DNA of 34,721 nucleotides. It comes from Candidatus Hydrogenedentota bacterium (lineage in GTDB: Bacteria > Hydrogenedentota > Hydrogenedentia > Hydrogenedentales > CAIZGN01). The DNA is taken from contig CAIZGN010000355.1 of assembly GCA_903932505.1 (NCBI GenBank), forward strand, positions 1-34,721, read 5' to 3'. A model generated the notes under the pieces. It had not been told where the DNA came from, made no database searches, and saw nothing but the letters and a program-made list of their open reading frames with translations. The position numbers and the translations under genes are program-made. Position 1 is the first letter of the stretch, and each line of letters begins with the position of its first letter. This document shows, piece after piece, positions 1,489-31,296 of this stretch.

Positions 1489-1491
1489 ATG
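1489..1491 (+). other. fliR start codon context
   Basis: The ATG at 1489 is preceded by a purine-rich GAAGAGGAAGGG stretch that serves as a strong ribosome binding site and fixes the fliR start; it sits only 21 nt after the fliQ stop, consistent with one transcript. Confidence 0.6.
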
Positions 1492-2256: not shown

Positions 2257-2262
2257 CGGTAA

Positions 2263-3369: not shown

Positions 3370-3384
3370 TAGGGAATCGAGCAG

Positions 3385-5475
3385 TTGGCAGTACCGGCCC
3401 AACAGATGCTGAAGCGCGGACAACGGTTGCTGGCGAAAAACCAGGATCTGGTGCCCTCTTTGGCCGTTGTAGGCGTGATGGTGATCATGCTGATCCCGCT
3501 TCCAACCGCGATTCTGGATCTCTTGCTCACCGTCAATATCTCGCTTTCCGTGGTGGTGTTGCTGGCCACGCTGTATATGCTGCGGCCCGTCGAATTTGCT
3601 GTTTTTCCATCGCTATTGCTCGTATTGACGCTGTTCCGTCTGGGCCTGAACGTGGCGTCGACGAAGCTGATCCTGGGGCAAGCCTATGCGGGCGAGGTCA
3701 TCAACACGTTTGGCAGTTTCGTCACCAGCGGGAACATTTTTGTAGGGGTGGTGATATTCTCGATCCTCGTGGTGATCCAGTTCGTGGTGATCACACGAGG
3801 CGCGACCCGCATCTCGGAAGTGGCCGCACGGTTCACGTTGGACGCTATGCCCGGAAAGCAGATGGGGGTGGATTCGGATTTGAACGCCGGACTTATCAAT
3901 GAAGAGGAAGCACGGCAGCGGCGACGGGACATCGAGCGCGAAGCAGATTTTTACGGGGCCATGGATGGAGCGACGAAGTTCGTGCGCGGGGACGCCATCG
4001 CCGGGCTGATCATCACGATCATCAACATCGTCGTGGGCTTTATCATCGGCGTTGCGATGTTAGGCCTTGATTTCGCGGAATCAGCGGCGGTGTACACGCG
4101 ACTGACCATCGGGGATGGTCTGGTGAGCCAGATTCCGTCGCTGGCTGTTTCGGTAGCGGCTGGCATGGTGGTGACGCGGACCGCATCGGAAAGCAATCTC
4201 GGTGCCGACCTAACCACACAATTTATGCGCTACCCACGGGCGCTGGGTGTGAGCGCGTTCATGCTGGCGCTCTTTGGCGTGGTGCCCGGGATGCCCACGG
4301 TGCCCTTCCTCATGGTGGGCTCGGTGTTGGGCTTCGCCGCGTACTTGAGCCATGAAGCGAAGGAGCAGGAGAAAACACGTTCCTCCGAGGAGAAGGAAAT
4401 CGCGCGGGAGGCGGCCTCTGAAGAGAAACCTGAACGCACAGAAGATTTGTTGCGGGTGGATCCGCTGAAGATTGAACTGGGCTATGGACTGATTGCCTTG
4501 GCCGATCCCAAACAGGGTGGAGATTTGTTAACGCGTATCCAGATCATCCGTCAGCAGGCGGCCACCAAGATGGGGTTCGTCGTGCCCGTGATTCGCATCG
4601 TGGACAATATGCGCCTGAGACCCAATGAATACCGGATCAAACTTCGGGAATCGGTGCTTGCCTCGTATGAATTACTGCCGGATCATTTCCTGGCGATGAA
4701 CCCGGGGCTTGTGGAGGAAGACATCGATGGGCATCCCACGGAGGAGCCGGCCTTCGGACTGCAGGCCTTGTGGGTGGCGCGCACAAACCGTGATCGCGCC
4801 GAACGGGTGGGCTACACGATTGTGGAACCGTCGGCCGTGCTCGCCACGCATCTGACGGAACTGCTTTACGCACACGCCGATGAACTGGTGACCCGCGAGG
4901 ATGTGCAAACCCTGCTGAAGCATCTGAAGGAAACCGCGCCGACGGTCGCGGATGAACTGGTGCCGAACATCCTGACACTGGGCGAAGTCCAGAAGGTGCT
5001 GCACAATCTGTTGCGCGAGCGCGTGAGTGTGCGCAATCTCGAGACGATATTCGAGGTGCTCTGCGATTATGGGCCGCGCACAAAGGATATTGAAGTGCTG
5101 ACAGAATATGCGCGGCACTCCCTGGGGCGCGAGATCTGTGCGAGTTATGTGGATGAACGAAATGCCCTGTATGTGGTAACGCTGGATCCGGCACTCGAGC
5201 GCGAGGTGCTGGACGCGGTTGCCCGGGGTGATTCCAGTGAGTTTCTTCCAGTTTCCCCGGAGCGTGCCGACCAGATTGCGGATCGGACCGCGCGGGCGGT
5301 GCAGCCCCTGGTATTGGCTGGACAAGATCCGGTGGTATTGACGTCAGCACCGGTTCGCCGTCATTTCCGACGCATTGTTGAGCGCCGCATCCCAAAGGTG
5401 GTGGTGCTTTCGTATCATGAACTCGATCCAGCGGTACATTTGCAGAGTGAGGGGCAAGTCCGGATGGATAACTAG
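3385..5475 (+). CDS. flhA: Flagellar export pore protein FlhA
   Basis: 696 residues from a TTG start at 3385, behind an AGGGA site 9 nt upstream; an in-frame ATG at 3406 (MLKRGQ) is an alternative that shortens it by seven residues. The N-terminal half has about eight membrane helices. The FHIPEP family signature is clear at about 142-165 (RISEVAARF then PGKQMGVDSD), followed by RGDAIAGLI. The C-terminal half is the soluble domain that docks chaperone-substrate complexes. An acidic/basic linker (about 330-350, EKTRSSEEKE) joins the two. FlhA forms the nonameric export ring and couples proton flow to export. It lies 15 nt after flhB. Confidence 0.96.
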   Translation: MAVPAQQMLKRGQRLLAKNQDLVPSLAVVGVMVIMLIPLPTAILDLLLTVNISLSVVVLLATLYMLRPVEFAVFPSLLLVLTLFRLGLNVASTKLILGQAYAGEVINTFGSFVTSGNIFVGVVIFSILVVIQFVVITRGATRISEVAARFTLDAMPGKQMGVDSDLNAGLINEEEARQRRRDIEREADFYGAMDGATKFVRGDAIAGLIITIINIVVGFIIGVAMLGLDFAESAAVYTRLTIGDGLVSQIPSLAVSVAAGMVVTRTASESNLGADLTTQFMRYPRALGVSAFMLALFGVVPGMPTVPFLMVGSVLGFAAYLSHEAKEQEKTRSSEEKEIAREAASEEKPERTEDLLRVDPLKIELGYGLIALADPKQGGDLLTRIQIIRQQAATKMGFVVPVIRIVDNMRLRPNEYRIKLRESVLASYELLPDHFLAMNPGLVEEDIDGHPTEEPAFGLQALWVARTNRDRAERVGYTIVEPSAVLATHLTELLYAHADELVTREDVQTLLKHLKETAPTVADELVPNILTLGEVQKVLHNLLRERVSVRNLETIFEVLCDYGPRTKDIEVLTEYARHSLGREICASYVDERNALYVVTLDPALEREVLDAVARGDSSEFLPVSPERADQIADRTARAVQPLVLAGQDPVVLTSAPVRRHFRRIVERRIPKVVVLSYHELDPAVHLQSEGQVRMDN

Positions 5476-5566
5476 CTCCGACATAGCGGTGAAATGAGTG
5501 AGTGAACAGACGGTGGCAAGAGCCCCGCGGTTCGTCAGGGTAAGAAGCAGCATTGGGAAAACGCCC

Positions 5567-6898
5567 ATGGGACAACAGCTAAAAAAAGTCTACGGACTTA
5601 CAATGAACGAAGCGTACGAGACGGCGCGCAAGAAATACGGCCCCAACGCCATTTTTCTGGGCACCCACGTCGTGCGAGATCGCGGGCTGCTCGGCTTACT
5701 CGGGTTGAAGAAAAAGGTTGAACTTACGGTATCGGTGGAAGAACCTGCGGGTGCGTCTCCGCAAAGAAAGCCCAGTGCTGTGGAAAAAAAATACGTTGCC
5801 AACAGCCGCCCCAGCACCACCCCGGAAATGCCGGACACCGTGCAGTTCTTTGAAAAGCTGGTGCGCGATGCGCAGGAGCGCATGCAGGGGCAGAGCGTGC
5901 CGCCCGCAAAGGGACGGTCGCAACAACAGACCCGGCCCGTGGCCGCCGGGGCGATGGACGGCACCGATGCCTCCCCGCTCATCCCGTTCCCACGGCGCAA
6001 GGAACAGGAGGAGGCCGCACCCACGGATCTGCAGCGTGAGCTGAGTGAGATCCGGCAGATGGTGCAGGTCATCTACGCGGAGAGCCCGGGCGCGGGGCTT
6101 CCTGCGGAATTTGCGCCACACTATCGGACTCTGGTGAGCCGAGGCGTGTCTCGCAAAGTGGCGGCGGGTCTGATCGGCGCGGTGCTGCGCGATAGCGACC
6201 TGTCGGTTTTGCGTGATGCGCGGATCTTCTCTGAGCGTCTCCACGTGGAGATGCGTCGTCTGCTGTACACGACCGGGGGGCTGCAACTGCAACAGGGTCA
6301 GTGCCGTGTGGTGGCGCTGTGCGGCCCCACGGGTGTGGGAAAGACAACGAATCTGGCGAAGCTGGCCGCACATTTCAGCGTGTCCGGTCTGGCCAGTGTG
6401 GGATTGATCACGGCAGACACCTACCGGGTGGGCGCGGCAGAGCAGCTCCGGGTCTACGCAAACATCATCGGCCTGCCGTTGCGCGTGGTGCACAACCCCA
6501 AGGAGGTGCGCGCCGCGCTCGCGGAATTTCGGGATTTCGATCTCGTACTGATGGACACGGCGGGCAGCAGCCAGTTTAACCTGGAACAAATCAATGAACT
6601 GAAAGGGATTCTGCACGCGGCACGTCCCGATGATGTGCTATTGGTGATGAGCGCGAGCACGCAGCTGGATGACTTGCGCAATGTCACGGCCAATTACAAG
6701 TGCCTTAATCCCACTTCCATTCTATTCGGAAAACTTGACGAAACACGGCAGTATGGGGCGCTCTTCAGTGTGCTGATGGAGGCCGGACTGCCGTTGTCCT
6801 ATGTCAGCGTGGGCCAGAACGTCCCCGACGACCTTCGGGTCGCCGCGCCGGGCATGGTGGCCAACCTGATTTTGGGAGGGAGTGAACACCATGGCTGA
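5567..6898 (+). CDS. flhF: Flagellar biosynthesis SRP-like GTPase FlhF
   Basis: 443 residues. The G domain has the P-loop GPTGVGKTT (253-261), followed by ITADTYRVGAAEQLR and DTAGS, all hallmarks of the SRP-GTPase subfamily. FlhF sets flagellar position and number, typically at the cell pole, in partnership with FlhG. I chose ATG 5567 because the product then begins MGQQLKKVYGLTM, matching the family N-terminus (basic strand, then helix and the GPNAIFLGT segment). A GTG at 5498 is in frame and would add 23 residues without family resemblance; both have only modest ribosome sites. A low-complexity Pro/Gln-rich linker lies between the N-terminal and GTPase parts. It follows flhA by 91 nt and overlaps flhG by 8 nt. 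Confidence 0.93.
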   Translation: MGQQLKKVYGLTMNEAYETARKKYGPNAIFLGTHVVRDRGLLGLLGLKKKVELTVSVEEPAGASPQRKPSAVEKKYVANSRPSTTPEMPDTVQFFEKLVRDAQERMQGQSVPPAKGRSQQQTRPVAAGAMDGTDASPLIPFPRRKEQEEAAPTDLQRELSEIRQMVQVIYAESPGAGLPAEFAPHYRTLVSRGVSRKVAAGLIGAVLRDSDLSVLRDARIFSERLHVEMRRLLYTTGGLQLQQGQCRVVALCGPTGVGKTTNLAKLAAHFSVSGLASVGLITADTYRVGAAEQLRVYANIIGLPLRVVHNPKEVRAALAEFRDFDLVLMDTAGSSQFNLEQINELKGILHAARPDDVLLVMSASTQLDDLRNVTANYKCLNPTSILFGKLDETRQYGALFSVLMEAGLPLSYVSVGQNVPDDLRVAAPGMVANLILGGSEHHG

Positions 6899-7754
6899 CC
6901 AAGCACAAAGACTTCGAGAGATGATGTGGAATGCGCGAAACACGGCGCGTGTGATTGCTGTGACGAGCGGTAAAGGGGGCGTAGGAAAGACGAGCACCAG
7001 CGTGAACCTCGCCATCACCCTTGCCGCGATGGGGCGGCGGGTGATCGTGATTGATGCGGATCTCGGCCTCGCCAATGTCGAGGTACTGATGGGGCTTGGC
7101 TCCATGTACAACCTCGAGCAGGTGATCGAGGGTGAGCGTCGCATGAAGGACATCCTTGTGCGCGCCCCCGGCGGCATACAAGTGGTTCCCGGATCTTCTG
7201 GACTCGCGAAGATTGCGGATCTGACTGCGGCAGGCCGGGACAATGTCCTGGCGGGCCTGCGGGACATCCAAGGCGAGGCGGATTTCATCATCATCGACAC
7301 AATGGCCGGTATTGGACGCAACGCCGTGGCCTTTGCGACGGCTGCGGACGAGGTCGTGCTGGTCACGACGCCCGAGCCTTCCTCAATCGTCGATGCGTAT
7401 GCAATGCTCAAGACCATCCACGCGAACCGCGAAAATGCGGTGATACGGCTCTTAGTGAATATGACGGCGAGTCAGGAGCAGGCCAAGGCGGTAGCCAGCA
7501 AGCTTTCGGGCGTGTCGCAAAATTATCTGGGCAAGAATTTGGCGTTTCTCGGATTTCTCCCCCGCGACCCGCATGTGTCCCAGGCGGTGATGCAGAGCCA
7601 GCCGTTTACGCTCGCGTACCCGAACTGCCCGGCCGCAAAGTTCATGCAGGTGGTGGCCAATCGCCTGGCCCATCAGCCGGTGGCCGCAGAACCGTCTCAG
7701 GGCGGCTTCCTCAAGCGTTTTGCCCGCAATTTCGGGCTGGCCAGCAACGGTTAG
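6891..7754 (+). CDS. flhG: Flagellar number regulator FlhG (FleN/MinD-like ATPase)
   Basis: 287 residues. Residues 3-9 read DQAQRLR, the DQAxxLR motif by which FlhG stimulates the FlhF GTPase. The deviant Walker A KGGVGKT (28-34), the strand VIVIDADLGLANV and the IIIDTMAGIG segment define a MinD/ParA-type ATPase. FlhG limits flagellar number and counteracts FlhF. ATG 6891 lies behind a GGGAGGGAG ribosome site; the GTG at 6882 is less likely because it would bury that site. The gene overlaps the end of flhF by 8 nt, so translation is coupled. It ends the operon, 22 nt from a convergent gene, and no obvious terminator hairpin fits that gap. Confidence 0.94.
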   Translation: MADQAQRLREMMWNARNTARVIAVTSGKGGVGKTSTSVNLAITLAAMGRRVIVIDADLGLANVEVLMGLGSMYNLEQVIEGERRMKDILVRAPGGIQVVPGSSGLAKIADLTAAGRDNVLAGLRDIQGEADFIIIDTMAGIGRNAVAFATAADEVVLVTTPEPSSIVDAYAMLKTIHANRENAVIRLLVNMTASQEQAKAVASKLSGVSQNYLGKNLAFLGFLPRDPHVSQAVMQSQPFTLAYPNCPAAKFMQVVANRLAHQPVAAEPSQGGFLKRFARNFGLASNG

Positions 7755-11326: not shown

Positions 11327-11475
11327 ATCAGGTGTTTGTGACTGGGCAGAGTGTGTTTGGGGCTGTAAGGTGCTGCGGTGCAACGGTTGTCCCTGCGTGA
11401 ACCATGAGTGCAGGGTGCGTGTTCATGTCGGCCAATGGTCGACATCGTTCGAAAAAAAATCTTAGGAATGACGGA

Positions 11476-14241
11476 ATGAAATTCAGGCTTGCGGTTGTTG
11501 TTTGTTGTGTGATGGTGTGGATGGTGTCACCGTGGTGCGCGGCCGTGGAAGACACGGAGTGCTTCGCCTGTCACGGAGAAAAAGATTTCACCATCCAAAA
11601 GCCCGATGGTAAAACGATTTCCCTCTACATCGACAAAGAGATCGTGGACACGTCCATGCACGGTCCCTTGGGTTGCACCGCGTGTCATAGCGACATCGCC
11701 GAAGTTCCTCACCCCGAAGGCCTGAAGAAGGTCGATTGCGCGGAATGCCACAAGGAGCAGGGGGATGTCTACGTCCAGAGTACCCATGGAAAAAAACAGG
11801 CCGAGGGCGATCCGCTCGCGCCCGCCTGCGCTGATTGCCATGGCAAGCACGACATCAAGCCGCTGGACGATCCGAACTCCTCCGTAAACGCCATCCATGT
11901 ACCGCAGACCTGCGGCAAGTGCCACGCGGACAACGCGCCCGTGGGACAATCCCGGAATATCGAGCAGAAAGATATCATCCAGCACTACACCGAGAGTATT
12001 CACGGTGAGGGTCTGCTGAAAAAGGGGTTGAAGGTAACCGCCGTCTGTAATAGCTGCCACACGGCGCACTCGGTACTCCCCCACACCGACCCCAAATCAA
12101 CAATTAACCGCGACAATGTGGTGGCCACATGCGAAAAGTGCCACACCCTGATCGAGCAGGTCCATCGCAAGGTCATCAACGGCGAGCTTTGGGAGAAAGA
12201 CCCGAACAAAGTCCCCATATGCATTGATTGCCATCAGCCCCACGCCGCGCGCAAGGTCTATTACGACACCGGCGTGAGTGATAAGGACTGTATGGCCTGC
12301 CACGACAAGGTGATTCAGGGTGCCAAGCGGGAGATTCCCGTAGTGGATGTCGCCCAAATTGGCGGTTCGATGCACAAGGAGAAGCGCTGCGCGCAATGCC
12401 ATACGGGTGCCGATCCCGCAAAGTCGCGCCCCTGCGAAACGGTGCCGACCAAGGTGGACTGCTCCATCTGCCACCAAGACCAAGTAACGCAGCACGCCAG
12501 CGGTATCCACGGCCAACTGCTGGCCAAGGGTGACCCGGATGCACCAGAATGCCTGGACTGCCATAGCGGTCACGGCACCCAATCAAAGAATGACCCGGCC
12601 TCTCCGTCCTTCCCAAAGAACGTGCCCGCGCTTTGCGGCAAGTGCCACCGCGATGGCGAACAGGCTGCCAAACGGCTGCATAGCACCCAGATTGACATCA
12701 TCGGGAACTATACCTCGAGTATTCACGGTAAGGGCCTTCTGGATAGTGGATTGCTGGTCACGGCGACCTGCACACGCTGCCATACGGCGCACCGCCCGCT
12801 TCCAGCGAGCGATCCCGAATCGAGCGTCAATCCGGCGAACCTGCCCAAGACCTGCGGGGCATGCCATGAGGGCGTGGAAAAAGCCTTCGAGAAGAGCATC
12901 CATTCACCCTTGGTGACCAAGACCGACAAGCCGCTGCCCGTGTGCAGCACCTGCCACACCGCGCACACTATTGCACGCACTGACCAAGACAAGTTCCGTC
13001 AGGACATTCTTGGCACCTGCGGCAAGTGCCACGCAGAGATTGCTGAAACCTATTTCGACACGTATCACGGCAAAGTCTCAAAACTGGGCGCAGGTGCAAC
13101 GGCGAAATGCCATGATTGCCATGGCGCACACGACATTCTGGCCGTGACAAATCCGAATTCGCATGTGAGCCGCGACAACATCGTGGCAACATGCAGCAAA
13201 TGCCATGAGGGTTCGAACCGTCGCTTTGCGGGGTATCTCACTCACGCGACCCACCACGATCCCAAGAAGTACCCGATCCTCTTTTACACATTCTGGGCGA
13301 TGACGGCACTTCTGGCAGGTACGTTCGCCTTCTTCGGCTTGCACACGCTGGCCTGGTTGCCCCGTTCCTTCCGGGAACTGCGACGCAAACGTGAGGGTGT
13401 GGGCGAAGGGGATCAGCGCCTCTTCATGCGGTTTGACCCCATCATCCGGCAGATGCACTTTGTGTTGATTTGCTGTTTCCTGGGCTTGGCCGTGACGGGT
13501 ATGGCCCTTAAATTTTCCTATATGCCTTGGGCCATGTGGCTATCCCGAATGATGGGCGGATTCCACACGATGGGCGGCATTCACCGAGCGTGCGCGGTCG
13601 TCATGATAATTCTGTTCGTCGTGCATTTGGTGGTCGTTGTCGAGCACAAGCGCCGGGGCGGTTTGACGTGGTTCCAGATGTTTTTGGGTTCGAAGTCGCT
13701 GGTACCCAACCTGACTGACCTCAAGGAATTCATCCAGACCATGAAGTGGTTCATGCACCTCGATCCGCGCCCGGCGTACGGACAGTGGACCTATTGGGAG
13801 AAATTCGACTACTTTGCGGTGTTCTGGGGTGTGGCCATCATCGGCTCCACCGGGCTCATGCTTTGGTTCCCTGAACAAATGACCAAGCTGTTCCCCGGAT
13901 GGTTCATCAACGTGGCAACCATCATCCACAGTGACGAAGCTTTGCTGGCTTGCGGGTTCATTTTCACGATCCACTTCTTCAACACCCATTTCCGTCCGGA
14001 AAAGTTCCCGATGGACATGGCGATGTTCACCAGCCGCATGACCGTCGAGGAGCTCATGCATGAGCGTCCCCGGCAGTATCAGGAACTGGTGGAGAGTGGT
14101 GAGCTTGAGAAGCACATCGTTCCCGAAGACGCACCAAAAGAATTCCAATTCTGGGCGATCCTGTTCGGCAATCTTGCCCTGCTGATCGGATTCTCCATGG
14201 TGATATTCATCCTGTACTCCATGATCTTTGGTTATCAGTGA
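11476..14241 (+). CDS. Fusion of a 19-heme cytochrome c with a b-type cytochrome membrane domain
   Basis: 921 residues. ATG 11476 follows AGGA and opens a signal peptide (LAVVVCCVMVWMVSPWCAA); an in-frame start at 11404 is less likely. I count 19 CXXCH sites between about residues 30 and 577, many in the pattern SIHG...CxxCHxxH, which supplies distal His ligands. From about 596 on there are six or so membrane helices with conserved His (MHFVLICC, GGIHRACAV, VHLVVVVEH, IIHSDEALL, FTIHFFNTH), resembling cytochrome b561/formate-dehydrogenase-gamma-type domains. The protein would link the quinone pool to a periplasmic heme wire. No catalytic reductase motif is visible. It is followed 137 nt later by a smaller paralogue. 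The c-type region contains an internal duplication. Confidence 0.88.
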   Translation: MKFRLAVVVCCVMVWMVSPWCAAVEDTECFACHGEKDFTIQKPDGKTISLYIDKEIVDTSMHGPLGCTACHSDIAEVPHPEGLKKVDCAECHKEQGDVYVQSTHGKKQAEGDPLAPACADCHGKHDIKPLDDPNSSVNAIHVPQTCGKCHADNAPVGQSRNIEQKDIIQHYTESIHGEGLLKKGLKVTAVCNSCHTAHSVLPHTDPKSTINRDNVVATCEKCHTLIEQVHRKVINGELWEKDPNKVPICIDCHQPHAARKVYYDTGVSDKDCMACHDKVIQGAKREIPVVDVAQIGGSMHKEKRCAQCHTGADPAKSRPCETVPTKVDCSICHQDQVTQHASGIHGQLLAKGDPDAPECLDCHSGHGTQSKNDPASPSFPKNVPALCGKCHRDGEQAAKRLHSTQIDIIGNYTSSIHGKGLLDSGLLVTATCTRCHTAHRPLPASDPESSVNPANLPKTCGACHEGVEKAFEKSIHSPLVTKTDKPLPVCSTCHTAHTIARTDQDKFRQDILGTCGKCHAEIAETYFDTYHGKVSKLGAGATAKCHDCHGAHDILAVTNPNSHVSRDNIVATCSKCHEGSNRRFAGYLTHATHHDPKKYPILFYTFWAMTALLAGTFAFFGLHTLAWLPRSFRELRRKREGVGEGDQRLFMRFDPIIRQMHFVLICCFLGLAVTGMALKFSYMPWAMWLSRMMGGFHTMGGIHRACAVVMIILFVVHLVVVVEHKRRGGLTWFQMFLGSKSLVPNLTDLKEFIQTMKWFMHLDPRPAYGQWTYWEKFDYFAVFWGVAIIGSTGLMLWFPEQMTKLFPGWFINVATIIHSDEALLACGFIFTIHFFNTHFRPEKFPMDMAMFTSRMTVEELMHERPRQYQELVESGELEKHIVPEDAPKEFQFWAILFGNLALLIGFSMVIFILYSMIFGYQ

Positions 14242-14378
14242 TTATCGGTGGCGGGGATTCCCCCGCGCCCGAGAGCAATCGATAGCGCGTTTTTGTTTGC
14301 CTCAGCGTCCGCCTCTCTGGCGACGGAACGTTGGGCTGGTGATAGGTCGTAACCTTGGATGACGGAAAGAAGAAGCGC

Positions 14379-16316
14379 ATGAATCGGTTTAGTGGATGGA
14401 TGGTCGGGATATGTTGCGCGGTTGTGTTGGGATGCTTTGCTATACCGGAGATGGTGTGGGCGGTGGAAGACGCCGACTGTTTTCAGTGCCACGGCGAAGC
14501 GGACATCAAAAACGATGCCGGGCGTTCGCTGTATGTGGATGCCAAGGTCTTTGCGGCATCGGTGCACAAGGACAATGGCTGCGTTTCGTGCCATGCTGAC
14601 ATCACCGAAGTGCCGCACAATCCCAAGCTCAAGACCGTGAACTGCGGCGAATGCCATGCCGAGCAGGAAGAGTACGCGAAGAGCCTGCACGGGTTGGCTC
14701 TGGCGAAGGGCGACAAGGATGTGGCAAGTTGCGACGACTGCCACGGCAAGCATGACATTCGTGCGGCGAAAGATCCCCTGTCCTCCATGTCTCCGGTGAA
14801 CCAGCCCGCCACCTGCGGCAAGTGCCACTCGAATCCAGAACTTGTGGCCCGCCACATGATTTCTGTGCAGCATCCCTCGGATGCGTATATGCAGAGCACG
14901 CACGCGAAGGCCATTCTCGCAGGAAACCTGAAAGCGGCCTCCTGCTCCAGTTGCCATGGCACGCACTCCATGCATTCCTCCCAAGATACGGACTCCAGTG
15001 TGAATCGCATGAATCTGCCCAAGACCTGCGGTGTCTGTCACCCCGCCGTGGTTGAGGAATACGCCAAGAGTATCCACGGCAAAGCACTGGCAGAAGGCAT
15101 TCCAGACGCGCCCACCTGCTATGATTGCCACGGTGAGCACGATATCGAAGCATCGGAAAACACGGGATCCTCGGTGAGCCGTGAAAACGTTTCGCGCTCG
15201 ACCTGCCCGCGCTGCCACGACGACGAGCGCGTCATGAAGCGTTATGGCATTGAGACGATGCGTTCCGCGAGTTACATGGACAGTTACCACGGCATGGCGA
15301 GTGCCGCTGGCTCCAAGGTTGTGGCCAGTTGCACGAGCTGCCACGGGGTGCACAGCATCCTTCCCTCCCGGGATTCTGCCTCTTCGACCAACATGGCCAA
15401 TCTGGTCAAGACCTGCGGAAAATGCCACGAAAATGCAAACGAAAACTTTACCACCGGCCAGGTGCACGTGCTGCCCTCGGATCCGAAGCAAAAAGCGCTC
15501 GGCATCGTCCGCCTCATCTATATTGTGCTGATCGTGCTGACCATCGGCGGCATGACCTTCCATAATTCCCTCATCATGGGTCGCCATATGCTGGGTAAGT
15601 TCTTCCAGGAACTTCGCGGGAAGGATACCTACAAGCGTTTCTCGCTCGGACAGACCATGGGCCACATGGTGCTAACCGTGTCGTTTATTACTTTGACCAT
15701 CACCGGTTTCGCCCTTCGTTACCCGGATACCTGGTGGGCTCAAGCAATCTTTGTGGGCGACTATGGTCTGGCCATGCGCGGCGTCATCCACCGCGCCGCA
15801 GCCATCGCGCTGGTCGCCCTCTCCTTGGTCAACGGGATTTACCTCGTTTTCACCAAGAGCGGGCGCGAGGAATTCCGGGCGCTTATGATGTGGCCGAAAG
15901 ACTTCTTCGACGTCCTGCGCAACATGCTCTATGTCGTCGGTCTCTCGAAAACCCAGCCGCGCTTCGGTCGATATAGCTACGTCGAGAAATTTGAGTACTG
16001 GGGCATGTGGTGGGGCACTTTCGTAATGGTGGTCACCGGCTTCTGCATGTGGTTCGTCAACATATTCCTCAAGTTCCTACCCAAAATCGTGCTGGATATC
16101 ATGGCACTTATCCACTTCTACGAAGCATGGTTGGCGATGCTGACCATTGTCGTGTGGCACCTTTACTACATGATTTTCGACCCGCACACCTACCCCATGA
16201 ACTGGTCGTGGATCACAGGTCGAATCACCGAGGAAGACTTCAAGGCGCGTCATCCGCTTGAATTCGAGCGGGTAACCGGAAAAGACGCGGGTGACGACCC
16301 ACACCACGGCGCATAG
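14379..16316 (+). CDS. Fusion of an 11-heme cytochrome c with a b-type cytochrome membrane domain
   Basis: 645 residues from ATG 14379; a TTG at 14355 would add eight residues. A signal peptide (GICCAVVLGCFAIPEMVWA) is followed by 11 CXXCH sites (about 35-350), then about five membrane helices from residue 375 with His-bearing segments (GHMVLTVSFI, GVIHRAAAIAL, IHFYEAWLAML, VVWHLYYMIF). Start and end closely parallel the 19-heme protein: both begin mature sequence with VED-xx-CFxCHGE and share a second-heme region ending in CHADI/CHSDI. Ends with KDAGDDPHHGA. The pair probably arose by duplication with gain or loss of heme modules. A strong terminator follows immediately, so the two form a bicistronic unit. 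Role: quinone-linked periplasmic electron transfer, direction unknown. Confidence 0.88.
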   Translation: MNRFSGWMVGICCAVVLGCFAIPEMVWAVEDADCFQCHGEADIKNDAGRSLYVDAKVFAASVHKDNGCVSCHADITEVPHNPKLKTVNCGECHAEQEEYAKSLHGLALAKGDKDVASCDDCHGKHDIRAAKDPLSSMSPVNQPATCGKCHSNPELVARHMISVQHPSDAYMQSTHAKAILAGNLKAASCSSCHGTHSMHSSQDTDSSVNRMNLPKTCGVCHPAVVEEYAKSIHGKALAEGIPDAPTCYDCHGEHDIEASENTGSSVSRENVSRSTCPRCHDDERVMKRYGIETMRSASYMDSYHGMASAAGSKVVASCTSCHGVHSILPSRDSASSTNMANLVKTCGKCHENANENFTTGQVHVLPSDPKQKALGIVRLIYIVLIVLTIGGMTFHNSLIMGRHMLGKFFQELRGKDTYKRFSLGQTMGHMVLTVSFITLTITGFALRYPDTWWAQAIFVGDYGLAMRGVIHRAAAIALVALSLVNGIYLVFTKSGREEFRALMMWPKDFFDVLRNMLYVVGLSKTQPRFGRYSYVEKFEYWGMWWGTFVMVVTGFCMWFVNIFLKFLPKIVLDIMALIHFYEAWLAMLTIVVWHLYYMIFDPHTYPMNWSWITGRITEEDFKARHPLEFERVTGKDAGDDPHHGA

Positions 16317-21131: not shown

Positions 21132-22061
21132 TCACTCCACGCCGAACACATAAACAATGGTCAGACTCGTGCGTTCATACGCTTCCGGCAAGGGCGGGAA
21201 CGGTGCCGCCATCATGATAGCATTAACACCCGATTGACCCAAGCCCGGGTCGGCAGCTTCCTTCACGACCCGAGGGGTATCCATTAGATTTCCCGCTCGG
21301 TCCACCGAGAAAGCCACCTCCGCCAACTGATTGTCCGGTGGCAGAATCATCCCCTCCGGCATCACCCACACGCCTTCCACCTTGCGCTGCAAATTGCGGC
21401 ACCAACCGTCCAGTACCGATGGCATGCCTTCACTGCGGACCCCAGGTTTGGCGGGCCCTGTTTGGGACGGCAACCCTGTGGGCGAACCCGCCTTACCCGG
21501 CGCTGTCTTCGTGGGATTCGCGGTCGATTTCGGGTCGGTGGAAGTCGCCTTCGGGTCTTTCTTCCCGGACGAATTAGCTTCAGCCTTCTTCGGATCCTTC
21601 TTGGGCGGCTCGGTTTTCTTTTCCGGCTTCACCGGTTTCTCTGGCTCGGGCTTTTTCTCCGGCTTCTCAGGTTCCGGTTTCTTTTCCGGCTTCTCGGGTT
21701 TCGGTGGATCAGGCTTTGGCGGATCCGGCTTGGGCGGATCAGGTTTTGGGGGATCCGGCTTGGGCGGGTCTGGCTTCGGTGGATCGGGCTTTGGCGGATC
21801 CGGTTTCGGCGGGTCTGGCTTCGGCTTCTCCGCCGGTGGAGGTGGTTTGGGTACTCCCAGTCCGGGTGCCTTGTCGGACTCCGCAGCCCCGGGATCCCCG
21901 ATCTCTCCCATCTGAATGGTCACGGGATTCAAACGGGTACTCCACTGAAACAAAATGACCGCACTGCACAACAGCGACACGTGCAAACCCACCGACACCA
22001 TCACTGACCTGCGCAATGGCCCACGGCGTGTTTCTCGGTAGTATCGAAGCAGGTTGAGCAT
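21132..22061 (-). CDS. TolA/TonB-like energy-transducing protein
   Basis: 309 residues from ATG 22061 (MLNLLRYYRET); starts at 22088 or 22106 are also possible because the ribosome site is weak. A single N-terminal membrane helix (about 21-40) is followed by a long Pro/Lys-rich spacer with eight KPDPP units and then PEKPEKK units, and a C-terminal domain of about 90 residues (WCRNLQRKVEGVW, then VAFSVDRAGNL) like the TonB/TolA C-terminus. Such proteins span the periplasm and deliver proton-motive energy from the ExbBD/TolQR motor to the outer membrane. With tolB directly downstream, a TolA role is favoured over TonB. The motor genes are missing here. Confidence 0.85.
   Translation of the reverse strand: MLNLLRYYRETRRGPLRRSVMVSVGLHVSLLCSAVILFQWSTRLNPVTIQMGEIGDPGAAESDKAPGLGVPKPPPPAEKPKPDPPKPDPPKPDPPKPDPPKPDPPKPDPPKPDPPKPDPPKPEKPEKKPEPEKPEKKPEPEKPVKPEKKTEPPKKDPKKAEANSSGKKDPKATSTDPKSTANPTKTAPGKAGSPTGLPSQTGPAKPGVRSEGMPSVLDGWCRNLQRKVEGVWVMPEGMILPPDNQLAEVAFSVDRAGNLMDTPRVVKEAADPGLGQSGVNAIMMAAPFPPLPEAYERTSLTIVYVFGVE
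21706..21825 (-). repeat. Tandem 15-bp coding repeat (eight KPDPP units)
   Basis: Eight consecutive 15-bp units such as GGATCCGGCTTGGGC (plus-strand form), differing mostly at synonymous positions, encode KPDPP on the minus strand. A second, shorter repeat encoding PEPEKPEKK follows at about 21640-21700. Such arrays expand and contract by slippage, so spacer length may vary among strains. Confidence 0.9.
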
Positions 22062-22126
22062 AGTTCCACGAAGCGCTGCCGGCGCCATACGGTCGTCTAA
22101 GGCCAAATTTCAGAAAAACCAATTAT

Positions 22127-22155: not shown

Positions 22156-22370
22156 TATATAGGATACCCCAACTGAGGCCCCATCAAGCAAGAGGTCTGT
22201 GATTCCTGTCTCATTCAATACCGGGATTGCTAAAAGGGTTCCACCAGCTCCCATGTGCGGCGTGGTTGAGGAGGGCGACCTTTCGCTCATCCAAGCGCAC
22301 CAAGCACTGGACAGGAGAACATCTCCAGTGGGTCGTCGCACGACCGGGTGCGCTTTCCAGGGAATTTAGC

Positions 22371-22398
22371 TTTCTCGGGAACCGTTCCCTGCTATAAT
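22371..22398 (+). promoter_or_regulatory. Promoter of the heme-sensor diguanylate cyclase
   Basis: A perfect TATAAT (22393-22398) with a weak -35 (TTTCTC at 22371-22376, 16 nt spacing). The poor -35 suggests an activator may be needed. Transcription would begin near 22405, ahead of a strong GGGAGGAG ribosome site at 22417-22424. Confidence 0.5.
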
Positions 22399-22432
22399 GC
22401 TTTGTTTAATACCAGTGGGAGGAGTACGTTTG

Positions 22433-22492
22433 ATGTTCAACGGCCCGACATACGCTCATACCCTCTCCTCCCTATTGGGGATCGGTCGGTGA
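22433..22492 (+). CDS. Possible 19-residue leader peptide upstream of the diguanylate cyclase
   Basis: An ATG at 22433 lies behind the strong ribosome site GGGAGGAG (22417-22424), but its frame ends after 19 codons (MFNGPTYAHTLSS...). Its TGA overlaps the GTG of the diguanylate cyclase as GTGA, the arrangement typical of coupled translation. Either a real coupling leader, or a sign that the cyclase starts elsewhere. The peptide has no recognisable features. Confidence 0.35.
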   Translation: MFNGPTYAHTLSSLLGIGR

Positions 22493-24087
22493 GAGCACGT
22501 ATTCAGGCTTCCATCTACCCTTGGCTCCAAGCCGTAAAGAATCGCACCCGATTGGGCATGGTCGGGGTGTTTCTCGTCTCGGTTTTCTTCATGGAGGCCC
22601 TTTTTTCTTATCAGTTCCTGCTGTACAGCCGTTACGAGACGGAGGAACTTAGCGCGGCAATCAGCGTGAGTCTGCGGCCTCTCATGATGGACCGGGACAA
22701 GGGAAAGATTACTGCGGCCTTGGAGGACATCCAGCGCGAAAGTCCGTCAATGACGCAGATTTTTCTGTTGGACCGCTCCGGAAAGGTGACCATGAGCTCC
22801 AACCCGGGTCATGTGGGAAAGAGGTTCGACCGCAACACGGATCCGTCCTGCCTGGCTTGCCACGGAGACAACCAACACCACTTGAATCAGTCCAATACAA
22901 TCCTCATGGAGGATGGCAGACTGATTCTACGCAGCATCGCCGCCGAGGAAAACAAGCCCGAATGCAGCACATGCCATGACCAGGCAAGCACACACAACGG
23001 GAAGCTGATTATTGACCGGTCAGCGGTCGCCGTGCTGGCCCCCGTCTTCCGCGTGGGTCTGGTTTTGCTGGTTGGCGGACTCATAATCACCCTGCTCGCT
23101 TCGAGGGGTGTGCAGCACAGCTTTGACCGTCACCTCAAAAACTATGTGCGTCAGGAGCGGCAATTGCAGAGCCTGTACGAGTTGCTGACGCATCTGAGCA
23201 ACACAATCAACGTGGATGAGCTTCGTTCCGTCTCCGCGCAAATATTACGGAACACCTTTGGTCTGCTGTCGGTCGATGTCATCCTGCCCGGACCCAACGA
23301 TGAGTTTAGGTGGGTGTCCTACGGTGAAGGCGCGACCGAGGTGGAACGCCGAAAATTCCCGGTGCCGGATTCTTGGGCCGGGTTATTGGCCGCCTGGAAA
23401 TCCTCAAAAGAATCCGGGGTGTACGCCTCCGCCGATTCTAGAGAGCTATTTCTCTTCACCGCCTTTGAGGACGCACCGCTCGCGATGTTTGTGGTGCGCA
23501 AGGCTGAGGGTGCGTTCGACGCCTCTGAGCAGATGCTGGCCCTTATGATGACGGAGCATATCGCAGCCTCCCTTAAAAACGCCTACCTATATCATCTGGC
23601 GGTAACGGATGACCTTACGCTGCTCTTTGCACGCCGTCATTTTGATCAATGCTTGGCACGTGACCTGCAGCGTGCCGAGGTTCAGGGACAGCAGGTAGGG
23701 CTGTGTCTGCTCGACATCGATCATTTCAAGCAGGTCAATGATCTCCACGGGCATTCGGTGGGCGACCAGGTGTTGCGCGAGATGGCCATGCGCCTTACAC
23801 TCAATCTTCGAAGCACGGATCAGGCGTTTCGGTTTGGTGGCGAGGAAATTGCAGTCATTTCCCTCCAGAGTTCCATGCAAAATGCCGTAGAACTTGCCGA
23901 GCGCATCCGCGAGACCATAGAAAAAGAATCCTTCACGGAACTGGGGCTGAAACTCACCGTCAGCATCGGGGTCGCCTGTTCGAACAATCGAAGCGACTTG
24001 CCACCCCGGGTTTTGTTTGAGGAGGCCGATGCCGCACTATATCGCGCGAAGAATGGCGGTCGAAACAGTGTGGTGGCGAGCGCATAG
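22489..24087 (+). CDS. Diguanylate cyclase with periplasmic di-heme c sensor, GAF-like and GGDEF domains
   Basis: 532 residues from GTG 22489; a GTG at 22348 is in frame but lies upstream of the promoter. Order: membrane helix (about 23-46), periplasmic sensor with two heme c sites CLACH (121-125) and CSTCH (159-163), second helix (about 183-205), GAF-like region (about 235-370), GGDEF domain (about 380-530). The active site reads RFGGEEI (448-454) and the inhibitory I-site RxxD is present at R441-D444, so an active, feedback-inhibited cyclase is expected. The product c-di-GMP usually promotes sessile growth and represses motility. The hemes suggest sensing of redox state or a gas. The gene is divergent from the tol operon and has its own promoter. 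Confidence 0.9.
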   Translation: MRARIQASIYPWLQAVKNRTRLGMVGVFLVSVFFMEALFSYQFLLYSRYETEELSAAISVSLRPLMMDRDKGKITAALEDIQRESPSMTQIFLLDRSGKVTMSSNPGHVGKRFDRNTDPSCLACHGDNQHHLNQSNTILMEDGRLILRSIAAEENKPECSTCHDQASTHNGKLIIDRSAVAVLAPVFRVGLVLLVGGLIITLLASRGVQHSFDRHLKNYVRQERQLQSLYELLTHLSNTINVDELRSVSAQILRNTFGLLSVDVILPGPNDEFRWVSYGEGATEVERRKFPVPDSWAGLLAAWKSSKESGVYASADSRELFLFTAFEDAPLAMFVVRKAEGAFDASEQMLALMMTEHIAASLKNAYLYHLAVTDDLTLLFARRHFDQCLARDLQRAEVQGQQVGLCLLDIDHFKQVNDLHGHSVGDQVLREMAMRLTLNLRSTDQAFRFGGEEIAVISLQSSMQNAVELAERIRETIEKESFTELGLKLTVSIGVACSNNRSDLPPRVLFEEADAALYRAKNGGRNSVVASA

Positions 24088-26520: not shown

Positions 26521-26649
26521 AACGCTCTAGGTGGCGGAACAGATTTTATTGCTATGACAGTGTTGCGCGGCGGGCAAACTAACAGTCGAGCGCGTGCTGA
26601 TTGGGTTCGAGTGGTGGGGTAGCTAATCGGGCAAGTGGAGCAAAGTTTG

Positions 26650-27807
26650 ATGCAAGCATTGAAGAAAACTTTTAATTTTCTGGCTTCCTATGGTTTGGCG
26701 TGCGTGCTGTTTATTTTGTTGTTTTTGCTGACTTTTCTGGGCACGCTCTATCAGGTGGATCACGGGCTGTTCGCTGCCCAAAAAAAATATTTTGAATCCA
26801 TTGTGCTGGTTCACCAGGCCTTTGGATTTCTGCCGATACCCCTGCCGGGCGGCTATCTGGTGATGTCGCTGCTTTTCATTAACCTGCTTCTCGGCGGGTT
26901 TCTGCGTTTGCGCGAGGGCTGGGTGAAGATGGGCGTTGCCATTACGCACTTCGGCATGTGCATGCTCATAGCAGGTTCTTACATTACCTTCCGCGAATCC
27001 TTTGGTGGGCATCTCACCATCAACGAGGGGGAGACCCAAAGTGAATTCGTCAGCTATCATGAGTGGGAGGTTGTGGTCACCGATGTGTCTCGTCCGGATG
27101 CAGCCCTAGAATACCTGATTCAGGAGGCCTCTTTTGCCCGCTTTACCGGGGAGTCGGAAGGCACATTCAATTTTGGTGATCTGCCCTTTACGCTCAAGCT
27201 TTCACGATTTTCCCGTAATACCGCGCTGAAGAAATCGTCCGGCACCGGTGGCCCGCCGACCGTGGACGGATACTATCTGGAACCACAGCCGGAAGAGCGC
27301 GACGACGAGTCCAACGATGCGGGTGCCTATATTCAGGTCTTGCCCACCCAAGGCGAGGCGAAGCCCGGATTGCTGTGGGGCCAGGCGCGTAAGCCCTTTT
27401 CGGTCGTGCTGGATGGCCGCACCTTTACCTTCGAACTTCGTAAGCGCCGTTTTCCGCTTTCCTTTGCGCTGCGTTTGGACAAGTTCACCTTTGAACGCCA
27501 TCCGGGCACAATGATGGCCAAGGTATACCGTAGCAGTGTGACCAAGATCGAGGGTGGTGTGGAAGAGGCCATCGAAATTACCATGAATGAGCCGTTGCGC
27601 CATCTGGGTTATACCTTTTATCAGTCCTCCTATGGGCCGCCGAATGCCAAGCCGGGTGACCGCATGTATTCCGTGCTTGCGGTTGTGCGCAATCCCGCCG
27701 ACCAAGTACCGCTTTACTCCTGCTTGGTCATTGCGCTTGGTATGGTAGCTCATTTCCTGTTGGCTTTGTTCCGTTATTTGAAGCGGGAAACGAGGAAATC
27801 CTCATGA
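26650..27807 (+). CDS. resB: Cytochrome c biogenesis protein ResB (System II, Ccs1/CcsB-like)
   Basis: 385 residues from ATG 26650, with GGAG 9 nt upstream; an in-frame GTG at 26635 would add five residues and would overlap that site. Three N-terminal membrane helices (about 12-35, 62-82, 93-115), a large periplasmic domain (about 120-350) with the segments GGHLTINEGE and YTFYQSSYGPP, and a last helix (about 353-375) form the ResB family topology. Together with CcsA it exports heme and attaches it to CXXCH motifs of apocytochromes. It overlaps ccsA by 4 nt (ATGA). The neighbouring cytochrome genes are obvious clients. Confidence 0.9.
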   Translation: MQALKKTFNFLASYGLACVLFILLFLLTFLGTLYQVDHGLFAAQKKYFESIVLVHQAFGFLPIPLPGGYLVMSLLFINLLLGGFLRLREGWVKMGVAITHFGMCMLIAGSYITFRESFGGHLTINEGETQSEFVSYHEWEVVVTDVSRPDAALEYLIQEASFARFTGESEGTFNFGDLPFTLKLSRFSRNTALKKSSGTGGPPTVDGYYLEPQPEERDDESNDAGAYIQVLPTQGEAKPGLLWGQARKPFSVVLDGRTFTFELRKRRFPLSFALRLDKFTFERHPGTMMAKVYRSSVTKIEGGVEEAIEITMNEPLRHLGYTFYQSSYGPPNAKPGDRMYSVLAVVRNPADQVPLYSCLVIALGMVAHFLLALFRYLKRETRKSS

Positions 27808-29786
27808 AAACACTACGAACCCTTTCGATATCCATTTTGCTCACTATCTTTGTGCTGACCTCGCTGTCCGCGTTGGCCCAAGATGCACCAGCCGCCGCAT
27901 CGGCTCCCGCGAAGCTGTTGCGCACCCAAGCTTGGGACAAGGAAGCGGTCGGGCTTTTTGAATCTCTGGCCATTCAAGAGGGCGGTCGCATCAAACCGCT
28001 CAAGACCTATGCCGACGTGTTGCTGCTCAAGCTCAACGGTCGTCGCAGCTGCCGGGATGCTCAGGAGGCAAAACTGGACGGCACGCAGTGGTTGATGGAT
28101 TGCCTTTTCTTTCCGGATTCTGCGCGCCAGTACAAGATGTTCCTGATCGAGAATTCCGATGTGCTTGTGGATCTAGGCCTTTCCTACACCAAGCGCCGCG
28201 ACCGTTATTCCTACGACGACCTTGTTGCTGCTCGCACCCTGTTGATGGATCGCGCTCGCACCTATTCCTCAATTGAAGCGCCCCTGCGCCGTCTCGGACA
28301 AACCCAGCTGATTAACTTGGCCACGAACATGATGGATTTTGAGTCACTGACCCACGCACTGGACGTGGTGCGCATGCGGCTGGATTTGCGCGACACGGGA
28401 CCTTTCTCGGCACTTGCTGCCGGAACCGGGCCACAACCGGTATCCGCGCTCTTTCCGAAGGCGGCTGAGTTCTCGGTTGCCTTGCAGGCATTACGGCAGG
28501 GGCAAGCGCAGGATCCGGGCCATGCCGCCGCCATGCGGGCCCTCAATCCATTGGGCGAAGCTGTGGACTCTGCGAGTACGCTGAGCTTCATAGCGCCCCC
28601 GGCGACGGACGCCACCTCTGAGTGGCGCTCCTTGGGTTCGTTGGCTGGACAACTCTTCGGAGGACAAACCCCGCCCGCCGATGAGGCTGCGGTTTTTTCG
28701 ACCTTCGAGGCTTTAGCGGATGCCGCCCCCACCCCCGCTGTGTTCACAGAAAAAGCCCGCGCATTGCACACCGCACTCGCGGTTCGCGCGCAGGTTCGAG
28801 GCGAATATCGCGCCATTGGCTTGGAGGTTCTTTACCACAAAGCGGACTTGGTCTATTACAGCCTGTGTTTCTATGTGCTGTGCTTCCTCGGCGTGGCGGC
28901 CTCCTGGGTGCGTCCCAAGAGCCTTCTCCTATACCGCAGCGACCTGTTTCTGCTTGCGCTTCCTACCGTGCTGCTGGCGATCGCGATCGCCATGCGGTGC
29001 ACCATCCGGCTGCGGCCCCCGGTGACCACCCTGTATGAAACCATTCTGTTTGTAGTGTGGAGCGCCATCGTGGTGTGCTTGTTTATTGAATGGATTCAGC
29101 GCAACAAACTGGGGTTGTCGATGGGTGCGATCCTCGGTATGATCGGCCTGTTCCTTGCCAACAAGTATGAAGTGATGGAAGGCGAAGATACCATGCCCAG
29201 CATGGTGGCGGTGCTCAACACCAATTTCTGGCTTGGCACGCATGTGACCACGATCACGATAGGCTATGCGGCGGGTTTGTTGGCGGGCGCACTTTCGCAT
29301 GCCTTCGTTTTTGGCAAGTTGTTCCGGGTCGACAAGAAAGTGGCGGGCTATTACCGTCCCTTGGATCGCGTTGTGTATGGGGTGCTTTGCTTTTCGCTGT
29401 TGTTCTCCATTGTGGGCACCATTCTCGGCGGCATCTGGGCGAATGAAAGTTGGGGCCGTTTCTGGGGTTGGGATCCCAAAGAAAACGGAGCCCTTCTGAT
29501 CTGTCTCTGGCAGTTGACCATCCTTCACGCGGTGCGCGGGCGATATATCCGGGATTACGGATTGCACCTCGCCTCGGTCTTTGGAGCGGTCGTTGTGGCC
29601 TTTTCATGGTTCGGCGTTAACCAACTCGGCGTTGGTTTGCATTCCTACGGCTTTACCAGCGGCATATCCAAAGCCCTGCTGATCTTCTATTCCATAGAAT
29701 GTGTGGTAATGGCATTGGGTGTGTTGGCTTGGGGTCTTGATCGAGGCCCCAGAGCTGAGAATCCAACCGAGGGTAACTTGGCCTGA
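27804..29786 (+). CDS. ccsA: Cytochrome c heme ligation protein CcsA/ResC with long N-terminal extracytoplasmic region
   Basis: 660 residues. A signal-like N-terminus (ISILLTIFVLTSLSALAQ) is followed by about 320 residues of extracytoplasmic sequence without a domain I recognise, then from about residue 350 a CcsA/ResC domain of roughly eight helices. The heme-handling WWD motif is seen as WGRFWGWDPKENG (550-562). Conserved His residues occur in LGTHVTTI and near the C-terminus (GLHSYGF). Family CcsA proteins are often only about 300-400 residues; the extra N-terminal part is like that of the fused or extended CcsA proteins of Bacteroidetes- and Epsilonproteobacteria-like systems. Start overlaps resB by 4 nt; they probably act as a heterodimer. 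Confidence 0.9.
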   Translation: MKTLRTLSISILLTIFVLTSLSALAQDAPAAASAPAKLLRTQAWDKEAVGLFESLAIQEGGRIKPLKTYADVLLLKLNGRRSCRDAQEAKLDGTQWLMDCLFFPDSARQYKMFLIENSDVLVDLGLSYTKRRDRYSYDDLVAARTLLMDRARTYSSIEAPLRRLGQTQLINLATNMMDFESLTHALDVVRMRLDLRDTGPFSALAAGTGPQPVSALFPKAAEFSVALQALRQGQAQDPGHAAAMRALNPLGEAVDSASTLSFIAPPATDATSEWRSLGSLAGQLFGGQTPPADEAAVFSTFEALADAAPTPAVFTEKARALHTALAVRAQVRGEYRAIGLEVLYHKADLVYYSLCFYVLCFLGVAASWVRPKSLLLYRSDLFLLALPTVLLAIAIAMRCTIRLRPPVTTLYETILFVVWSAIVVCLFIEWIQRNKLGLSMGAILGMIGLFLANKYEVMEGEDTMPSMVAVLNTNFWLGTHVTTITIGYAAGLLAGALSHAFVFGKLFRVDKKVAGYYRPLDRVVYGVLCFSLLFSIVGTILGGIWANESWGRFWGWDPKENGALLICLWQLTILHAVRGRYIRDYGLHLASVFGAVVVAFSWFGVNQLGVGLHSYGFTSGISKALLIFYSIECVVMALGVLAWGLDRGPRAENPTEGNLA

Positions 29787-29853
29787 GTCGGTGGAGCGGA
29801 TCGGAGACGCACGGGGTGTGTGTCCCAACTTATTACTCATTTGGAGAATGAAA

Positions 29854-31296
29854 ATGCCTAACGAACAACGTGGAATTAAAGCTTGGATGGCTGCGGCCCT
29901 GCTCCTTTTTGGCCGCAATTGGATTACGATGTTTGGCGCGGCACTGGCGACCGCCGGAGCGGTGCTGACCATCGGGATTATGGGCTTTATGCTCCTCATG
30001 GCACCCGAATCGCCCTACGCAGGCGTCATGGCCTTCATGGTACTGCCCCCGGTCTTCATCGGTGGATTGGTGCTTATTCCCTTGGGTGCGCTGTGGGAGC
30101 GCTGGCGCATATCAAAGCGCCCCGCTGAGACGAACGAGGGTTTCCTGCCGGTGCTCGACTTCACGAACCGACGTGTTCTGCGCGCGGTTATCCTAGTCGG
30201 CATTCTCACCTTCTTCAACATACTGATTCTTTCCTCCGTAAGTTACGGCGGCTTGCTGTTCATGGATTCGGTCACCTTCTGCGGTCGTGTTTGTCACTCC
30301 GTCATGAATCCCGAATATACCGTCTACATGCGCTCCCCCCACTCCCGGGTGGCCTGCGTGCAATGTCATATCGGCCCGGGTGCCTCTTGGTTCGTCAAGT
30401 CCAAATTGTCCGGCGCGCGTCAGGTCATTGCCACCATGCTGAACAGCTATGAACGCCCAATTCCCACCCCGGTCGCGAATCTTCGGCCCTCGCAAGATAC
30501 CTGCGAACAATGCCACTGGCCAGAACGCTTTTCGGGTGACCGCATGAAAGTGATCACCAAGTTTGACGAGGACGAAACCAACACCTCGAAGAAAACCGTC
30601 CTGCTGATGCACATTGGCGGCGGTGGAACCAACAACGGCATCCACAGCTGGCATGTGGCCCCCGACAAGAAGACCACCTATATCGCCTCAGACGACAAAC
30701 GCCAGAAAATGGCCGCCGTGCGCGTACACCGCGCCGATGGCACCGTTACCGAATTCCGCCGTGAAGGCGTGGAAATTCCGGCGGGTGCGGAAGAGCGTCG
30801 TATGGACTGCGTGGATTGCCACAACCGTCCCACCCACATCTACCGCCATCCGGACGAAGAGCTGGATGCCTCGCTGGAAGCCAAGCGCATCGACCCGGCC
30901 CTTCCCTTCATCAAGAAAGCGGGTATGGCGGCGCTGAATAGCGTGGAAGCCAAGGACGCAGCGGCGGACAAGGAGAAGATTGCCTCCAGCATTCGTGCGT
31001 TCTACGAGAAGGAAAAGCCCGAGGTTCTCAAGTCGCAGGGTGACGCGATCAACGCGGCCATCGCCGAAATGCAGACCATTTACAGCAACAATGTCTTCCC
31101 GGAGATGGACGTCAAATGGGGTTCTTACATTAACAACCTCGGCCACGTGCGTTCCGATGGATGTTTCCGTTGCCATGATGACTCCATGAAGAGTGCGGAT
31201 GGCAAGGTGATCCCGCAGGACTGTAACGCTTGCCACGCCGTATTGGCGATGGACGAAAACGACCCCGAAATCCTGAAACAACTGCAAGGGGGATGA
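29854..31296 (+). CDS. NapC/NirT-like membrane-anchored multiheme cytochrome c
   Basis: 480 residues from ATG 29854, with TTGGAG 7 nt upstream; the ATG at 29848 is too close to that site. Three membrane helices (about 25-52, 60-82, 108-136) precede a periplasmic domain with one unusual CX3CH site (CGRVCH, 143-148) and five standard sites: CVQCH (168), CEQCH (217), CVDCH (319), CFRCH (437), CNACH (457). The CHSVMNPEY and HSRVACVQCHIGPGA segments mark the NapC/NirT/NrfH superfamily, which takes electrons from quinol and passes them to periplasmic reductases. It is longer than NapC (about 200) and has three helices rather than one. It follows ccsA by 67 nt and is followed by a carbamoyltransferase after 7 nt. 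Confidence 0.88.
   Translation: MPNEQRGIKAWMAAALLLFGRNWITMFGAALATAGAVLTIGIMGFMLLMAPESPYAGVMAFMVLPPVFIGGLVLIPLGALWERWRISKRPAETNEGFLPVLDFTNRRVLRAVILVGILTFFNILILSSVSYGGLLFMDSVTFCGRVCHSVMNPEYTVYMRSPHSRVACVQCHIGPGASWFVKSKLSGARQVIATMLNSYERPIPTPVANLRPSQDTCEQCHWPERFSGDRMKVITKFDEDETNTSKKTVLLMHIGGGGTNNGIHSWHVAPDKKTTYIASDDKRQKMAAVRVHRADGTVTEFRREGVEIPAGAEERRMDCVDCHNRPTHIYRHPDEELDASLEAKRIDPALPFIKKAGMAALNSVEAKDAAADKEKIASSIRAFYEKEKPEVLKSQGDAINAAIAEMQTIYSNNVFPEMDVKWGSYINNLGHVRSDGCFRCHDDSMKSADGKVIPQDCNACHAVLAMDENDPEILKQLQGG

Follow-up and report, generated by a model that had tools for sequence, protein, structure and literature searches.

Known periplasmic heme sensors

Among described proteins, the closest to the one reported here are GSU0582 and GSU0935 of Geobacter, for which a redox-linked methionine switch is reported: methionine is bound to the reduced heme and lost on oxidation (PMC8396549). 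In GSU0935, Met60 and His144 are reported as the ligands of a low-spin heme (PMC8396549). Reports of diheme periplasmic c-heme sensors exist for Geobacter and Anaeromyxobacter (PMC8396549, PMC3831638); a 2026 preprint lists fusions of the single-heme sCache_heme domain to GGDEF (PMC12889525). The terms “c-type heme” and “cytochrome” are nowhere mentioned in a census of c-di-GMP sensors (PMC8846402), and our search of the open-access literature turned up no description of a diheme c-type cyclase. In Shewanella and Geobacter, both the expression of cytochromes and extracellular electron transfer are known to change with the level of c-di-GMP (PMC7533324, PMC12285248). Feedback of the periplasmic redox state on c-di-GMP is poorly known, and the conserved clade of diheme c cyclases described below is a candidate sensor for it.

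The cyclase gene and its topology

The window, i.e. the whole stretch of DNA analysed, is 34,721 nucleotides long and comes from a Candidatus Hydrogenedentota bacterium. It carries an open frame from 22270 to 24087, in which a GTG at 22489 gives a protein of 532 residues. An alternative, longer start is the GTG at 22348. The start at 22489 fits better, since GGGGA lies upstream of it and since the orthologues begin just before the tryptophan of the first transmembrane helix (TM1). The gene and its predicted membrane helices are as follows.

22489..24087, + strand: putative diheme c-type Cache sensor diguanylate cyclase, 532 aa (open reading frame; orthologues L006-L009)
22546..22623, + strand: TM1, residues about 20-45, continuing into a long periplasmic signalling helix (hydropathy; models)
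23017..23109, + strand: TM2, residues about 177-207, followed by a coiled coil without a HAMP domain (hydropathy; models; alignment)

The order of domains is TM1, periplasmic diheme domain, TM2, coiled coil, GAF-like region and GGDEF. Full-length orthologues are found in five of 68 Hydrogenedentota genomes, from four families, and the four orthologues are 30-33% identical to the window protein (the same 68 genomes make up the set for the order, the class and the phylum). The first-pass annotation had described a diheme c sensor joined to a diguanylate cyclase, and this reading stands: both CxxCH motifs lie between the two hydrophobic helices, in the predicted periplasmic loop, and both are kept in all five genomes that carry the cyclase (hereafter, carriers).

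Identity of the sensor domain

As judged by profile comparison and modelling, the periplasmic part of the cyclase is a heme-c Cache domain of the GSU0582/GSU0935 type. A profile of 17 sensor domains finds 3b47/GSU0582 (7.7e-11) and 3b42/GSU0935 (2.8e-10) over about 120 residues, nearly the whole length; a search with just the window protein gets no further than 0.065. In the profile alignment, the CSTCH at residues 159-163 falls on the CQSCH of the GSU sensor, before the last strand. The AlphaFold model of the sensor domain (pLDDT 90) leads Foldseek to GSU0935 first and then to the Cache sensors WalK, DctB, DcuS and CitA, and has a single Cache fold with a CxxCH inserted before the last strand. 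At about 0.5 the TM-scores to the GSU domains are modest, in line with what domain-swapped crystals would give. Against PF11845 the window protein scores 16.5 bits, under the cut-off of 24.1; at E<0.1 the family is hit by 12 of the 17 relatives, the best of them at 2.3e-5.

Heme motifs and the invariant methionine

Three sites in the sensor are of particular relevance to heme binding.

22684..22686, + strand: Met66, counterpart of Met60 of GSU0935, an axial heme ligand (alignments; PMC8396549)
22849..22863, + strand: CLACH, putative heme 1 motif, residues 121-125, beginning with C121 (alignment)
22963..22977, + strand: CSTCH, putative heme 2 motif, residues 159-163, beginning with C159, equivalent to the single heme site of GSU0582/GSU0935 (profile alignment)

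Across the sensor part of the five-way orthologue alignment there are 18 invariant columns, six of which belong to the two CxxCH motifs and one to a methionine. The comparison was widened to 83 distinct sensor domains, in essentially all of which the second motif is present, although for some loci this conservation follows in part from the retrieval pattern, which includes that motif; in many of the kinases the second motif takes the form CX4CH. The methionine was in none of the retrieval patterns, and the Met66 column is invariant in 83 of 83. Conservation thus singles out one invariant residue, Met66.

The first motif occurs in about 70 domains; it is missing in about 13-15 of the 83 relatives, as it is in GSU0582 and GSU0935. 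Since the single-heme relatives without it still keep the methionine, Met66 appears to pair with heme 2. In chain 3b42 the aligned methionine has the number 26 and the histidine of the heme motif 110; this spacing of 84 equals that of Met60 and His144 in GSU0935, so that Met66 is the counterpart of the known axial ligand. By homology at about 20% identity, Met66 is therefore predicted to ligate heme 2. The first CxxCH is an extra putative heme site relative to the Geobacter sensors, and we infer that it is loaded with heme. Over the 83 domains, no column of His, Met, Lys, Tyr, Cys, Asn or Gln tracks the first motif closely enough to be proposed as a distal ligand for heme 1.

Output domains

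The cytoplasmic part is divided into two regions.

23212..23559, + strand: GAF-like region, residues about 242-357 (profile match, models, relatives)
23599..24066, + strand: GGDEF domain, with GGEE at 450-453 and the I-site R441xxD444 (PF00990; alignment)

In the search of the genome, the window cyclase matches PF00990 with 147 bits against a cut-off of 23.8. Alignment with eight cyclase relatives shows that D409, N417, D418, G450, G451 and E453, which include the metal-binding aspartate, substrate residues and positions of the GGEE motif, are invariant in 8/8, as are R441 and D444 of the RSTD I-site (441-444), five residues ahead of GGEE. The active site and inhibitory site noted at first reading are thus both intact, and with these motifs the protein should synthesise c-di-GMP.

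The assignment of residues about 242-357 as GAF is weak. Pfam gives no GAF match for the window protein, and the relatives stay below threshold for GAF_2 and GAF, at 6e-5 at best. Such backing as there is for the initial GAF-like call comes from these hits of the relatives, from the match of profile positions 253-359 to the PDB sensor-protein chain 3o5y, from GAF-containing cyclases that rank high in the structural search, and from the secondary structure of the model. The full-length model has a pTM of 0.46 and was left out of the reading of domain arrangement.

Distribution and evolution

A three-row alignment scan of the named genome collection returned two orthologues, both from Candidatus Hydrogenedentota. 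The sensor type as such is common to several bacterial phyla: it is present in 56 of 386 genomes, which together with other loci give the 83 distinct domains. Their outputs are mainly histidine kinases, with nine cyclases and a small number of HD-GYP and MCP proteins (outputs were assigned by regular expression, and ten diheme rows are partial or carry no output call). A widely used diheme Cache module thus extends beyond histidine kinases. The window genome itself also encodes two histidine kinases with a CxxCH motif. One (L002; G000:C90, 370-2058, - strand) has the same sensor type, with CVICH and a CX4CH second motif (CYTANCH); the other (L003; G000:C609, 370-1974, - strand) has one periplasmic CxxCH (CFRCH) and is weakly similar to the window sensor.

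In a tree of the 83 sensor domains, built with the columns of the first motif removed, all nine diheme cyclases group into one cross-phylum clade (94/95 support), which also takes in two other rows. Within it the five Hydrogenedentota cyclases form a clade (99/95), beside proteins from Desulfobulbales, from a deltaproteobacterium placed in Myxococcota and from one further genome. Three named relatives in this group carry about 50 additional residues between TM2 and the GAF-like region, HAMP-like by place and sequence, and the Hydrogenedentota cyclases are without this stretch. The simplest reading is that the ancestor was a diheme-Cache, HAMP, GAF-like, GGDEF protein, and that HAMP was lost in Hydrogenedentota.

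Genomic context

The cyclase gene is solitary and divergent from the tonB-like and tolB genes; the TonB-like protein (21132-22106, - strand), adjoining tolB, has a long PDPPKP / KPEPEKPEK repeat. Other genes of the window concern cytochromes c.

11404..14241, + strand: 19-heme c / b561-like membrane cytochrome, not adjacent to the cyclase (co-occurs with it across the phylum)
26635..27807, + strand: ResB-like cytochrome c maturation protein (System II), the sole ResB found in the genome
27804..29786, + strand: cytochrome c assembly protein of CcsA/ResC type (context)

Periplasmic heme attachment should be possible in this organism, because ResB- and CcsA-type genes are present in the window. 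Right after them, 29719-31296 encodes a NapC/NirT-like cytochrome with five CxxCH and one CX3CH. The neighbour of the 19-heme cytochrome (14355-16316) is a membrane protein with 11 CxxCH and a cytochrome b-like membrane domain. The count of 40 other heme sites in the window given at first was slightly high, as we find 19 + 11 + 5 CxxCH plus one CX3CH, i.e. 36.

The first-pass annotation had further proposed that the cyclase controls motility or attachment in response to electron-acceptor supply, and suggested a search for homologues beside multiheme cytochromes. Seven orthologous loci (L057-L060, L046, L050, L052) have no common neighbours, and at none of them do flagellar or multiheme genes lie beside the cyclase. 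Since these loci share no neighbours, proximity within the window is discounted as evidence. Control of motility finds no specific backing: the flagellar export genes of the window (1489-7754) are about 15 kb from the cyclase gene, and such genes are common in the phylum, FlhA being present in 48 of 68 genomes and in 5/5 carriers (p 0.16). FlhA is missing from most of family f10. The window genome has 15 GGDEF and six PilZ matches.

For electron transfer, the neighbours likewise give nothing, and modest support for a link of the cyclase to multiheme electron transfer comes from co-occurrence. An orthologue of the 19-heme cytochrome is present in all five carriers versus 15 of the 68 genomes overall. 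With kinship left out of account p is 3e-4; restricting the test to good genomes gives 9e-4, and to those of at least 5 Mb 0.01. Stratified by family the association is weak (p 0.04), with just five carriers. Genome G021, congeneric with the carrier G015, has neither the cyclase nor the 19-heme cytochrome. In 14 other Hydrogenedentota genomes this cytochrome keeps about 62-72% identity, a much higher conservation than that of the cyclase. Cytochrome c maturation is ruled out as the cause of the co-occurrence, with ResB in 62 of 68 genomes. The nitrite reductase NrfA, considered as a pointer to NO, was also discarded, being if anything depleted (1/5 carriers versus 42/63 others, p 0.06); it is widespread in Hydrogenedentota (43/68 genomes).

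Proposed mechanism and alternative signals

Redox or gas was initially named as the most likely input, and this is upheld by the homology to c-heme Cache/PAS sensors whose biochemistry has been studied and by retention of the redox-switching methionine. The reading that we favour, at somewhat better than even probability, is that of a one-component c-di-GMP synthase of the inner membrane that senses periplasmic redox by way of a diheme c-type Cache domain with a Met switch at heme 2. Two hemes c would be attached in the periplasm. Heme 2 would have His163 as proximal and Met66, on the N-terminal helix, as distal ligand, holding the methionine in the reduced state and letting go of it on oxidation. 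Because the helix of Met66 is continuous with TM1, gain or loss of this bond would shift the helix pair, and the shift could pass through TM2 and the coiled coil, with no HAMP between, to the GAF-like domain, so aligning or separating the two GGEE domains of a dimer. Cyclase activity would be subject to product inhibition at the RxxD site. Heme loading and ligation, the redox response, the direction in which the cyclase responds and the behaviour controlled are all predictions from sequence.

Heme 1, for which no conserved distal ligand is seen, would most likely be the relay by which heme 2 and periplasmic carriers exchange electrons, or else an open site for a small ligand. A division of labour in which heme 1 is the inlet for electrons from periplasmic multiheme cytochromes and heme 2 the Met switch is a tentative proposal, to which we give a rather low probability. 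If it were true, the cyclase would read the redox poise of the multiheme respiratory chain and not a free chemical, and c-di-GMP would be wired to electron flow in a cyclase clade that spans phyla. A suggestive parallel is the Geobacter diheme kinase GSU0599, which we take to be encoded near the cbcBA genes for quinone-oxidising cytochromes.

A gas could be the physiological signal instead, and nitric oxide is the strongest rival to redox. NO would bind one of the periplasmic hemes, break the bond to the trans ligand and so alter cyclase activity. Signalling-fused sCache_heme proteins, a family in which GSU0582 and GSU0935 are placed, are assigned to NO sensing (PMC12889525), GSU0582 binds NO too (PMC8396549), and heme 1 could accept a gas. 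However, the sensor tested lacks a distal Cys and was read as water-ligated (PMC12889525), whereas heme 2 here is accompanied by an invariant methionine; in addition, four of five carriers are without the ammonifying nitrite reductase NrfA, and therefore nitrite ammonification is no shared trait of carriers. We regard NO sensing as possible yet unlikely. Oxygen, which might bind a reduced open heme or oxidise it and so report aeration, is a poor candidate: the c-heme chemoreceptor DcrA is described as a sensor of redox potential and oxygen (PMC8396549), but oxygen gives no stable complex with the sCache_heme protein of signalling type that was tested (PMC12889525), and a response via autoxidation would be hard to distinguish from redox sensing.

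Equally improbable is that the hemes are structural or plain electron carriers, the true signal being either a small molecule that occupies the Cache pocket or one perceived by the GAF domain. The carboxylate-binding Cache folds of DctB, CitA and DcuS are indeed among the structural neighbours, but across phyla nothing in the domain is better conserved than the heme motifs and the methionine, which is unexpected for passengers. Short motifs such as CxxCH can also arise at random in a heme-free sensor. This last explanation is refuted at the sequence level and retains a negligible probability: in 20,000 shuffles of the window protein one CxxCH appeared in 0.2% and two in none, both motifs are present in 8/8 cyclase relatives, and the domain is homologous to heme-c proteins of solved structure.

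Comparison with known systems

Periplasmic c-heme sensors being already known, the window protein is a diheme version of the Geobacter-type sensor. With GSU0582 and GSU0935 of Geobacter sulfurreducens (PDB 3B47, 3B42) it shares the Cache/PAS-like fold, the position of heme 2, the axial methionine and the two TM helices flanking the periplasmic domain (PMC8396549). Those proteins have a single heme, HAMP and a chemotaxis (MCP) output, unlike the window protein with its two predicted hemes, no HAMP, and GAF-like and GGDEF regions. The sCache_heme family (DUF3365/Tll0287-like, PF11845; PMC12889525) is alike in its covalent heme c in a Cache domain, with the CxxCH before the last strand corresponding to heme 2; it is described with one CxxCH, whereas the window sensor adds a first heme site and has Met, not Cys, as the predicted sixth ligand.

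Closer in heme number are the c-heme sensors GSU0599, GSU0591, Adeh_2011 and Adeh_3383, which have two heme motifs and are likened here by their descriptions alone (PMC8396549, PMC3831638). None of the four is described as a diguanylate cyclase; the annotation of GSU0591 reads cytochrome, and GSU0599 is a two-component protein. In DosC/DgcO, heme-based sensing of gas or redox also controls a GGDEF domain, but there the sensor is a cytoplasmic globin with non-covalent heme b, whereas the window cyclase would carry heme c in the periplasm.
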